A stretch of DNA of 20,866 nt from assembly GCA_913009315.1 (NCBI GenBank), contig CAJVZA010000030.1:1-20866 (forward strand), written 5' to 3'. Position numbers and translations under genes: made by a program. Source of the DNA: an uncultured Hippea sp. Lineage in GTDB: Bacteria > Campylobacterota_A > Desulfurellia > JAADFJ01. Of this stretch, positions 1,776 through 7,297 are shown piece after piece. Each line of letters starts with the position of its first letter. The first letter of the stretch is position 1. The notes under the pieces were generated by a model. The model was not told the DNA's origin. It made no database searches and worked only from the letters and a program-made list of their open reading frames with translations.

Positions 1776-1813
1776 GCGACTCCCGAAGAGAATATGGATT
1801 GTGTGTTTCAATT

Positions 1814-2167
1814 GGTGGAGGTGGCGGGAATCGAACCCGCGTCCAGTAAATGGTTACCCGATGAACGCTACATGCTTAGTCATCTTTGAGTTTTAGATTT
1901 TACCTTTAAGATGACAAATCGGTAAAATCTTCAGCTTTGTAATACAAGTCTGAAACCACAAAGCTATTCATTTCAGACCGCCTTCCTTTTAATTAGAGAT
2001 TATAAGCACCTCAGAAGGTTAAGTTGGATATAATCCCTTAGCTGACTAAGCAGCTAACGCGTAACTATTTTCGTTTGCGTTTATTTGTTTTGCACCTGTT
2101 TAACGAGCACAGTGCAACCTCGGCATGCTCTCATCTTCCTCCATTTCTGTCGAGTCCAATCACCCCC
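1814..2167 (-). ncRNA. ssrA: Transfer-messenger RNA (tmRNA)
   Basis: A one-piece tmRNA of 354 nt that rescues ribosomes stalled on mRNAs lacking a stop codon. Reading the minus strand, the 5' acceptor strand GGGGGTG (2167-2161) pairs with CACCTCC near the 3' end, with one G-U pair. The 3' end has a T arm (GCGGG, TTCGATT, CCCGC), discriminator A and an encoded CCA ending at 1814. GGACTCGAC near the 5' end and GCATGCCGAGG further in are typical tmRNA segments. The resume codon GCA opens a tag frame encoding ANENSYALAA. The 5' 37 nt lie within the smpB coding region on the same strand. I see no clear internal promoter directly upstream of 2167, so co-transcription with smpB followed by RNase P processing is likely. 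Confidence 0.96.
2046..2078 (-). CDS. ssrA: tmRNA proteolysis tag (ANENSYALAA)
   Basis: Within the tmRNA, 11 codons starting at GCA (2078-2076) and ending with TAG encode ANENSYALAA. The AN start and ALAA end are the usual form of bacterial tags, which are added to stalled proteins and recognised by ClpXP-type proteases. It has no start codon because translation resumes here from the alanyl-tmRNA. Confidence 0.93.
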   Translation of the reverse strand, partial: ANENSYALAA

Positions 2168-2622
2168 TTTATTTGTCTCAGGGCATCTCTGTTTTGATCC
2201 TCTTTCTTAAGAGCCTCACGCTTGTCGTACAGCTTTTTTCCTTTAGCGACGGCAATCTCTATTTTTACCCTTCCGTTTCTAAAATATAGCCTGAGCGGGA
2301 TAATTGTCAATCCCGTTTTCTTTATTTCCGAAGATATTTTCAATATCTCTTTTTTGTGCATCAAGAGTTTTCTGTCTCTATCCGGATCAGGTATAAAACT
2401 GCCGCTGTTCGAATATGCGGCAATATGAAGACCGGTTATAAACAGTTCTCCCTTGATCAGGTAAACATATCCGTCTTTTAGAGATGCCTTATGAGAGCGT
2501 ATTGATTTTACTTCTGAGCCCAAAAGCACAATTCCGGCTTCGTATTTTTTAAGTATAACATAATTGTGGAAAGCCTTTCGGTTGGTTACCGCAATATTTT
2601 TGTTATCAGTTTTTGACGACAT
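2131..2622 (-). CDS. smpB: SsrA-binding protein SmpB
   Basis: A 163-residue SmpB, the partner that delivers tmRNA to stalled ribosomes. Recognisable segments are NRKAFHNYVILKKYEAGIVLLGSEVKSIR near the N-terminus (OB fold), SLKDGYVYLIKGEL, HIAAYSNS, and the basic tail GKKLYDKREALKKEDQNRD. The last eleven residues (GVIGLDRNGGR) and the stop codon are read from the 5' end of ssrA, so this part of the tail is fixed by tRNA-like sequence and looks like an extension of the normal SmpB C-terminus. The start at 2622 overlaps the end of pilQ by 17 bases, so smpB is probably translated from the pil transcript. Confidence 0.95.
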   Translation of the reverse strand: MSSKTDNKNIAVTNRKAFHNYVILKKYEAGIVLLGSEVKSIRSHKASLKDGYVYLIKGELFITGLHIAAYSNSGSFIPDPDRDRKLLMHKKEILKISSEIKKTGLTIIPLRLYFRNGRVKIEIAVAKGKKLYDKREALKKEDQNRDALRQIKGVIGLDRNGGR

Positions 2623-4735: not shown

Positions 4736-5173
4736 CTATTTTGGTAATTCAAGCTTTACAACAACAGATTTTTCTACATTTTTATCTCTGTATGTCCCTT
4801 TTATGCTTATGAGTGAATTTTTTATTCCTACAACTGTTGCTTGTTTGCCGATATGATCATCAATCTTTACAATATATACACTGCCGTTTGACACAATTAA
4901 TGCTCTTTTGCCAAGTTTTCCGGTCATAATGCCGACAAGCGATATAGCTCTTATTTTTGCAATAATTTCACTTTTATTGGCATTCTCTTCGACTGTTCTT
5001 TCTTGTGCGTTTAATATTTTCAATTTTTCAAGATCAATAAACGGATCTCTGCCGCTGTATCTGAATCTTTCGATTTGAGTGTTTCCGGCAATTATACTTT
5101 TTGCGGCCATTACCGGATTAGGCAAAAAAATCAGACCTATAACAAATACTAATGTAATATAGTTTTTTCTCAT
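4736..5173 (-). CDS. pilP: Type IV pilus assembly protein PilP
   Basis: A 145-residue periplasmic pilotin-like protein that links the PilMNO inner-membrane platform to PilQ. It shows a signal peptide (MRKNYITLVFVIGLIFLPNPVMA), the RDPF motif (YSGRDPFIDLE, about residue 42) typical of PilP, and a C-terminal beta-sandwich region (ISLVGIMTGKLGKRALIV). Many PilP proteins are lipoproteins with a lipobox Cys; here none is visible at the cleavage region, so it is probably released by signal peptidase I or anchored by its N-terminus. The start codon overlaps the pilO stop by four bases, indicating translational coupling. Confidence 0.92.
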   Translation of the reverse strand: MRKNYITLVFVIGLIFLPNPVMAAKSIIAGNTQIERFRYSGRDPFIDLEKLKILNAQERTVEENANKSEIIAKIRAISLVGIMTGKLGKRALIVSNGSVYIVKIDDHIGKQATVVGIKNSLISIKGTYRDKNVEKSVVVKLELPK

Positions 5174-5736
5174 TTTTTTCGACTATTTTTAAAATAGTAT
5201 GTAGAAAGCCGGAGTGCTATATGCGCAGTCGCCAGATTTTCTGATTTTGTTGTTACGCCCGTTATCAAAATTTCCCCGGGTATTATGATGCGTTTTTCAT
5301 CGGACAGATCTGTAATAAACTTGCCCAAAGACGCATAATTTGAAATCAGATCCAGATTTATATTGACAGTGTTATAAAACTTTTTTTTATTGACAACAAG
5401 CGAGGGGTTGAAACGGTTAACGACAATTCTGTTTCTTTGAGCCAGACTTACGACCCTTTTAATAAGATTTGGTATCTCTTTCTTATTCGGTAAATTTTTA
5501 GATAAAATTTTAAACTGTCTTGTATATCGAGCCAGACTTTTTTTTACAAGAGGCAGTTTATTGCTGATAATCTGAAGTTTGACCACATCTCTTTTTAATT
5601 GATTGAGTGTTGTATTCTTCGGCAGATAACTGTAATGTGCAAAGAAATATAGCGGTGCTGCTATAATTGCGATAATGATTATAGCCTTTTGAATAATTGG
5701 GGCTTCGTTAAGCGATTCCGATATAGGGTTTGCCAT
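5170..5736 (-). CDS. pilO: Type IV pilus inner-membrane protein PilO
   Basis: A 188-residue bitopic membrane protein of the pilus alignment subcomplex. After a short cytoplasmic N-terminus there is one membrane segment (AIIIIAIIAAPLYFFAHYSY, about residues 18-37), then a charged coiled-coil-like stretch (about 40-90, with KNLPNKKEIPNLIKRVVSLAQ) and a ferredoxin-like periplasmic domain (NINLDLISNYASLGKFITDL). Position between pilN (one-base gap) and pilP (ATGA overlap) supports the assignment. Confidence 0.93.
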   Translation of the reverse strand: MANPISESLNEAPIIQKAIIIIAIIAAPLYFFAHYSYLPKNTTLNQLKRDVVKLQIISNKLPLVKKSLARYTRQFKILSKNLPNKKEIPNLIKRVVSLAQRNRIVVNRFNPSLVVNKKKFYNTVNINLDLISNYASLGKFITDLSDEKRIIIPGEILITGVTTKSENLATAHIALRLSTYYFKNSRKK

Positions 5737-5737
5737 C

Positions 5738-6250
5738 TTATTTAAACCTTATTCTGAATGAAACTATCGGATTTTGCGGTGTACCGCCCGACCTTGATAA
5801 GCCTTTACCTTCAAAACTAACATTTTTGAAACCTCCTTTTTTCTCAAGAGAGATCATGTATCTTGCGACGGAAGCATAGGAAAATGCCTTTCCCGAAACG
5901 GTTATTGTTCTGCCTTTTGAAAGATAGTCTATCCATATATCAGGCACAGTGGCGTCGCCAAATCGATTCATAAAAGATATATCGCCGTAACGCATTGATT
6001 GGAGCTTTTTTATGCTATTCGATTTAGATTTTATTATTTTTGTTTTATTCTCAAGTTTTTTGACAATAGAGGCAACATATTTTAAGCCGTTCTTTCTTGC
6101 CTGAAGAGAATTTATAGCAGAATTTTGATATAAATAGGCTGTCGCAAAAGTAAGCAGCTCAATTATGATAATTGCTATAAGAATTATAGAGTACGAAAGG
6201 ACAATATGTTTTTTAGGTTTTTTGGATTCAATAAGATTAATAAGTATCAT
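5738..6250 (-). CDS. pilN: Type IV pilus assembly protein PilN
   Basis: A 170-residue inner-membrane protein that heterodimerises with PilO and whose cytoplasmic tip binds PilM. The N-terminus MILINLIESKKPKK is a reduced form of the INLLPW-type PilM-binding motif. One membrane segment follows (about residues 18-41), then a coiled-coil stretch rich in Lys and Ile, and a ferredoxin-like periplasmic domain (TVSGKAFSYASVARYMISLE). The start codon directly follows the pilM stop codon with no spacer. Confidence 0.92.
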   Translation of the reverse strand: MILINLIESKKPKKHIVLSYSIILIAIIIIELLTFATAYLYQNSAINSLQARKNGLKYVASIVKKLENKTKIIKSKSNSIKKLQSMRYGDISFMNRFGDATVPDIWIDYLSKGRTITVSGKAFSYASVARYMISLEKKGGFKNVSFEGKGLSRSGGTPQNPIVSFRIRFK

Positions 6251-7297
6251 TTAAAATATGTTCCTCAGAGCCAATCCTATCGAAGTGGAATAGATTGCCT
6301 CTTTGCCTTTTATTGATCTGATACTGACGCCGGAGGGATCAATGAGAATAGCTTTAAACGGATTCATTACCATTACATCCGTTGCAAGTTTTTCTTCAAA
6401 ATAAGGTTGAAGACCGGATATTAAAGCTCCTCCGCCGGAAATATATATCGGAATTTGCTGCGATGTTGTATATTCACTTTCATTGTTTTTTAAGAAAAAT
6501 TGGATAGAGCTTGTTGCGGCTGCTACTATGGTTTCATAACTTTCATCAAACATATTTTTTATTTCGGGATAATTTTCCGTTTCTTGTTTATTTATATCAA
6601 AGTTTTGAACCAGATGCTCGGCATCACTGACACCGATATTCAATCTTTTGGATATTTTGTTTATAAGCTCTGTTGTGCCTATAGGCATATCTCTTGCAAA
6701 AAGTGTTATGTTGTTATCCACTATGTTAAGTTTAGTATAACTTTTGCCTATATCAAGCAAATATATGAGACCCTTTATATCGTCATAGTTCTGTTCAAAA
6801 CAGTTGGCGATTGCAAGACTGTCTATATCGATAATCTCAGCATTCAGGCCGGCTTCTCTGATAATTTCCTTACGTTTTTCAACCGTTTCTTTCTTGGCCG
6901 CCGCAATCAGAACATTTACTTTTTCGCTATCATCAGATGGCAAGAGCTGAAACCCGATATTAACATCATTTATATTGTACGGTATATATTGCTCAGCTTC
7001 CCAGATTACAGCCTGTTTAAGCTCAGAGATATCTACAGCCGGCAATGATATATTCTTCACTATTACATCGTTGCCGTGCAGTGATACGCAAACGGTTTTA
7101 TCTTTTATCTTATTCTTTTTGAACAGTTTCTTAATGAATTCGGCTATGGATTTTGCGTCTAAATTTTCATAGTCCAGATTATCGGAATATGCTTCAATGG
7201 CAAGTTTGGCAGCTATTATATCGCTCTTTGCGTGTTTTAGCTTTGCAACTTTAATGCTGTAGCTACCTATGTCAAGTCCTACCATTTGGCGTTTCAT
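6251..7297 (-). CDS. pilM: Type IV pilus actin-like ATPase PilM
   Basis: A 348-residue cytoplasmic actin/FtsA-fold protein that caps the PilN N-terminus inside the cell. Phosphate-binding motifs are visible at VGLDIGSYSIKVAKL (about residue 6) and YLLDIGKSYTKLNIV (about 189), and the adenosine motif at IYISGGGALISGL (about 289). AVIWEAEQYIPYNINDV and the MNPF segment are also family hallmarks. AAAGGAG precedes the ATG. This is the first gene of pilMNOPQ-smpB-ssrA, with a recognisable promoter 74 bases upstream. Confidence 0.95.
   Translation of the reverse strand: MKRQMVGLDIGSYSIKVAKLKHAKSDIIAAKLAIEAYSDNLDYENLDAKSIAEFIKKLFKKNKIKDKTVCVSLHGNDVIVKNISLPAVDISELKQAVIWEAEQYIPYNINDVNIGFQLLPSDDSEKVNVLIAAAKKETVEKRKEIIREAGLNAEIIDIDSLAIANCFEQNYDDIKGLIYLLDIGKSYTKLNIVDNNITLFARDMPIGTTELINKISKRLNIGVSDAEHLVQNFDINKQETENYPEIKNMFDESYETIVAAATSSIQFFLKNNESEYTTSQQIPIYISGGGALISGLQPYFEEKLATDVMVMNPFKAILIDPSGVSIRSIKGKEAIYSTSIGLALRNIF

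Follow-up and report, generated by a model that had tools for sequence, protein, structure and literature searches.

Overlap of smpB with the 5' end of the tmRNA gene in an uncultured Hippea species, and its recurrence in other bacterial lineages

The window analyzed is the whole 20,866-nt stretch of contig CAJVZA010000030.1 (assembly GCA_913009315.1), from an uncultured Hippea sp. with a genome of about 1.7 Mb. On its minus strand smpB and ssrA follow one another and share DNA (Table 1). The tmRNA is called by ARAGORN at 1813-2167, with the tag ANENSYALAA, and matches RF00023 from 2167 to 1813 (model positions 1-374, not truncated; 183.7 bits vs. a gathering score of 47; E 1.1e-73). The RNA features an alanine-type acceptor with a G3-U pair, a CCA end and a tag frame ending in ALAA; a G3-U pair is typical of alanine acceptors. 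The product of smpB is an SmpB equivalog (TIGR00086, 188.2 bits, cut-off 119.1; PRK05422, 200.1 bits, cut-off 130), and the match to the family model stops at residue 152, right where the tmRNA-encoded extension begins. The gene is flanked by overlaps on both sides, and ends a run of pil-like genes (4736-7297 upstream).

Table 1. Features of the smpB-ssrA region of the window
Feature	Positions	Strand	Basis or remark
smpB CDS, 163 aa	2131..2622	(-)	ATG 2622-2620, TGA 2133-2131; ORF and SmpB equivalog match
ssrA/tmRNA, 355 nt, CCA encoded	1813..2167	(-)	ARAGORN; RF00023; fold z-score -4.5
smpB/ssrA overlap, 37 nt, same strand	2131..2167	(-)	tmRNA nt 1-37 = smpB 3' end
Acceptor stem, 5' strand GGGGGUG	2161..2167	(-)	RF00023 alignment; predicted RNase P site 2168/2167
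Acceptor stem, 3' strand CACCUCC	1817..1823	(-)	RF00023 alignment; followed by ACCA at 1816-1813
smpB stop TGA	2131..2133	(-)	tmRNA nt 35-37; predicted paired in helix 2, minimum-energy fold
Tag reading frame ANENSYALAA*	2046..2078	(-)	ARAGORN, gene positions 90-122
Candidate ssrA promoter TTGACA-N16-TATATT	2283..2310	(-)	in LTIIPLRLYF codons; 11/12 consensus match
pilQ-like gene/smpB start overlap, 17 nt	2606..2622	(-)	ORF list; pilQ-like stop 2608-2606

The first base of the tmRNA (G1, 2167) is the third base of the Lys152 codon AAG (2169-2167), and tmRNA nucleotides 2-37 encode SmpB residues 153-163 (GVIGLDRNGGR) and the stop. The overlap covers the 5' strand of the acceptor, the D-like region and the 5' strand of helix 2. 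Pairing of GGGGGUG with CACCUCC, G3-U included, is read directly from the sequence and found in the RF00023 alignment. A start of the tmRNA at the last base of an smpB Lys codon, the peptide and stop lying inside the RNA, and the acceptor pairing had all been claimed in the preliminary description, which had named beforehand a covariance-model 5' end downstream of 2131 as evidence to the contrary; ARAGORN and RF00023 (model position 1) concur on 2167. An alternative 5' end is ruled out by the two programs and the acceptor pairing. Because the same -37 junction occurs in the separate assemblies of both congeners, and is thus common to three of them, an assembly artefact is ruled out as well. 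The overlap at these coordinates is confirmed. No second copy of ssrA was seen in the genome (assembly 88% complete).

Within the genus, represented by three genomes only, the -37 overlap is identical in both other species (G001 and G002), and the peptide is the same or nearly the same. In neither congener does smpB stop earlier while ssrA starts at the same place, a combination which would have spoken against the original claim. In the sister family f2 (G005) smpB and ssrA are 67 nt apart, and the SmpB tail counts 19 residues after DKR. In the sister families f3 and f4 tails are 18-20 residues long, and no tmRNA 5' motif adjoins smpB; in several of these genomes the two genes are far apart or on different contigs. 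Since sister families lack it, the overlap is, on this comparison, derived. A full-length tmRNA was not found in G003, G007 and G014, at an estimated completeness of 94-100%; these are probably assembly gaps, as smpB lies at a contig end in G003, and G007 is without smpB too.

The SmpB tail of this genus is 28 residues long after DKR vs. 18-20 in the sister families. The tails align without gaps, ALKKEDQNRDALRQIK followed by GV in this genus, VLKEKELRREKERALK followed by EY in the sister, so that the junction falls at the native SmpB C-terminus. The native tail of this genus is at residue 17 by the junction, and the last 11 residues are therefore a run-on. By the same alignment, sister tails finish 1-3 residues beyond the predicted cleavage point, the cut thus falling 1-3 residues before the usual SmpB C-terminus. 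According to frame, a run-on would measure 8, 37 or 87 nt, and the actual frame is the middle case. In the simplest history, the ancestor of the genus would have lost the native stop of smpB and the spacer between the two genes, presumably by deletion, and the smpB frame would then have stayed open into ssrA until an in-frame stop was first met, 37 nt inside; this order of events rests on one sister genome with adjacent genes. The run-on may have been tolerable because smpB encodes nearly the whole normal tail before the junction, and the tmRNA frame is open for 12 codons.

The order smpB-ssrA, with the two genes adjacent, is found in many bacteria. Overlaps elsewhere were monitored in 386 phylogenetically spread genomes, a sample of bacteria which is not random, with sequence patterns that linked the DKR codons of SmpB to the conserved 5' end of the tmRNA. 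The first pattern missed Clostridia-type 5' ends (12 of 42) and was loosened; the smpB locus was then read in about 100 protein-similarity lineages. Overlaps of 1-36 nt were found in seven further lineages from these genomes and one named contig, the counts from the pattern part being lower bounds. Overlaps measure 36 nt in G256 (gaps of 129 and 163 nt in the family members G385 and G118), 24 nt in the three genomes of g80, 11 nt in G170 and in the Atribacteria contig L038, the named one, 10 nt in G345/G070, 8 nt in G062, and a single nucleotide in G329, where the tmRNA begins (G1) with the G of the smpB TAG stop. The g80 tmRNAs (L215-L217) are missed by ARAGORN and detected by Infernal at 122-125 bits. 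SmpB proteins of this lineage have only 12 tail residues before the tmRNA start; seven tmRNA-encoded residues then bring the tail to the usual 19.

In at least five more lineages the two genes are separated by 0-2 nt, and overlap is hence the extreme of a continuum of close spacing. Overlapping and abutting genes share the same order, and differ in that RNase P would leave the smpB stop intact in the latter. In g86, tmRNA G1 directly follows the smpB TAA stop, with zero spacer. As judged from these genomes, smpB/ssrA overlap is rare but recurrent, in several unrelated bacterial lineages. Pattern matches in L144, L145, L218, L224, L226, L232 and L234-L237, without adjacent smpB, were dropped as chance, and L148-L153 were set aside as chance from reading the sequences alone; the apparent overlap in L095 was rejected, ssrA being upstream of smpB.

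Constraint on the overlap was measured between the genome analyzed here (G000) and G002, the most diverged pair of the genus. In the 420 nt of smpB upstream of the junction 69 of 140 third codon positions differ (49%), along with 15 first and 8 second positions. None of the 12 third positions in the overlap has changed, as RNA constraint predicts. The single change in 37 nt hits a second codon position, and is nonsynonymous for SmpB (Ile to Thr). In this comparison constraint shows at the RNA level, and not at that of the extra peptide. The notion that both readings are constrained is thus borne out for the RNA only, selection at the peptide level on the extension being unsupported, as the one substitution alters the peptide.

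The tmRNA-encoded residues (GVIGLDRNGGR here, GGERSRR in g80) might still be a working part of the SmpB tail, which extends into the mRNA channel as a helix (PMC4151336); g80 needs its seven residues to reach the usual length. Such a role is very improbable, as the native tail of this genus is about complete before the junction, the added residues are glycine-rich and open to the Ile to Thr change, and the sequences are wholly different between lineages. A function of the 11-residue extension, entertained earlier, found no support for the first of these reasons.

No spacer is available in this junction to hold an ssrA promoter. The candidate promoter found inside smpB has its -10 box 115 nt before tmRNA G1, and is present in all three congeners, every hexamer base being retained in G002. 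Codon and promoter statistics were drawn from 400 kb of this genome, in which equally good sites number 28 outside long ORFs, 10 inside sense ORFs (306 kb, i.e. about 1 per 30 kb) and 2 in antisense orientation. This distribution indicates that a sigma-70-like consensus is meaningful in this genome. Under genome codon usage, the chance that LTIIPLRLYF carries such a site is 0.015. At the same SmpB codons, TTGACA-N16-TATAYT is found in the abutting lineages L221/L288, L222/L291, L223 and L228-L230, and TTGACA with a TATTTT box in g80.

The association was assessed over 101 protein clusters with the LTxxPLxxYF motif, in an exploratory test prompted partly by the same data. Promoter scores of 10 or more at the motif occur in 8 of 20 lineages with gaps of 30 nt or less vs. 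5 of 81 others (Fisher p = 0.0004), TTGACA in 6 of 20 close-gap vs. 3 of 81 other clusters (p = 0.0017); restricted to LT proteins, the p values are 0.004 and 0.009, respectively. Abutting and overlapping lineages thus seem, in this exploratory analysis, to often carry a sigma-70-like promoter in these codons. A good site at the motif is absent in the overlapping lineages G256, G170, G345/G070 and G062. Promoter-like sites reside at the motif also in L282, L307 and L367, where no tmRNA was found adjoining smpB. The embedded-promoter pattern suggests where ssrA may be transcribed when a spacer is absent, and in the genome analyzed here much tmRNA probably starts at the internal site 2310-2283. 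A broader scheme, with many independent origins, would have the LTxxPLxxYF codons of abutting and overlapping lineages double as ssrA promoter and the smpB 3' end as tmRNA 5' end, promoter choice and RNase P setting the SmpB:tmRNA ratio; we regard it as unlikely.

We hold with moderate confidence that a real, derived overlap is here combined with tmRNA made largely from the internal promoter, and with ribosome/RNase P competition, non-stop smpB mRNA and tagging on long transcripts. Short transcripts from the internal promoter would supply most tmRNA, and longer operon transcripts (pil genes-smpB-ssrA) would carry both genes. On the long transcript, a ribosome completing SmpB would unfold tmRNA nucleotides 1 to about 50, and RNase P, requiring a folded, closed acceptor stem, would compete with it; translation and cleavage would therefore be mutually exclusive in time. 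In E. coli it is established that RNase P matures the 5' end of tmRNA and that non-stop mRNAs lead to tagging (PMC3985003). Cleavage at 2168/2167 would, as the preliminary description had it, leave an smpB mRNA without stop, ending in AUA and two bases (AA) of the Lys152 codon. At this end ribosomes would be expected to halt, Ile151 occupying the P site, and tagging by tmRNA-SmpB would yield SmpB 1-151 followed by Ala and the tag. Non-stop cleavage, SmpB tagging and feedback are here inferences. The further suggestion that each shared transcript yields either smpB mRNA or tmRNA is weakened by the good promoter-like site within smpB, 115 nt before G1, from which most tmRNA would probably originate.

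A strong promoter-like site within smpB would also suit separate smpB and ssrA transcripts, the smpB mRNA ending or being processed elsewhere and the overlap remaining a DNA-level curiosity, of no consequence in vivo. We judge this distinctly unlikely, since an smpB mRNA that includes its stop has to run to 2131 or beyond, and the minus strand from 2131 to the tmRNA body showed no terminator-like site, which makes read-through into ssrA likely.

If long transcripts are cut as proposed, RNase P could make SmpB synthesis self-limiting, a feedback put forward in the preliminary description and, for Carsonella, by Hudson et al., and the overlap might be kept for this reason, as an adaptive switch akin to the non-stop arfA mRNA of E. 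coli, whose product is controlled, and whose message is repressed, by trans-translation (PMC10107115). The overlap is conserved across the genus and has arisen repeatedly. In the assembly, 88% complete, no ArfB was evident, the only two RF-1 family proteins having release-factor length (339 and 346 aa), so that a non-stop smpB mRNA would depend on tmRNA. Yet the overlap is rare (about 2% of surveyed genomes) and missing in closely related genera, its lengths and frames vary by lineage (-1 to -37) in a way resembling chance run-on, the tmRNA alone explains the constraint on the overlap, and an internal promoter would uncouple most tmRNA from smpB. A selected switch is accordingly doubtful. Variation of lengths and frames among lineages, taken with the lack of peptide constraint, leads us to favour negative coupling as a tolerated cost, a by-product rather than useful regulation. 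The similarity to arfA would be that a rescue factor has a non-stop message, and hence a tmRNA-SmpB substrate. The arfA message is cleaved by RNase III, and its product is a backup factor (as cited in PMC4131195); in contrast, the cut would here be RNase P maturation of the tmRNA, and the target the own partner of the tmRNA.

Feedback by non-stop mRNA is not a new idea. In Carsonella smpB overlaps ssrA in half of the strains, tmRNA maturation should give non-stop smpB mRNA, hence feedback, and no other case of overlap turned up among about 2,000 genomes (Hudson et al. 2014, PMC4131195); the overlap in Carsonella ruddii goes back to Mao et al. 2009, as cited in PMC4131195. The junction described here is of the same type, the genes lying on the same strand, smpB upstream, with the smpB stop within the mature tmRNA and a non-stop smpB mRNA expected. 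The Carsonella SmpB has lost both its tail and its central loop, and carries extensions of random appearance (PMC4131195); in contrast, a full-length SmpB equivalog with an intact tail is encoded here, in a genome of about 1.7 Mb, and three species share the identical overlap. Loss of the tail, a trait of the Carsonella SmpB not needed for overlap, is not observed. A same-strand overlap of tRNA genes with the 3' ends of upstream CDSs has been tabulated in 250 cases (PMC4131195). There too, processing of the RNA takes the stop codon away from the upstream gene, but the RNA is a tRNA, bearing no relation to rescue.

As the prior report concerned only a degenerate insect symbiont, the overlap could be dismissed as genome decay. 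The finding of the overlap alongside an intact SmpB in several unrelated lineages is new, as is the embedded-promoter pattern. Overlaps found at least seven times beyond this genus, in genomes of about 1.2-2 Mb with intact SmpB, make non-stop feedback testable in a clean construct. Natural comparisons with and without overlap are provided by G256 vs. G385 and G118, and by G005 vs. the genus analyzed here.
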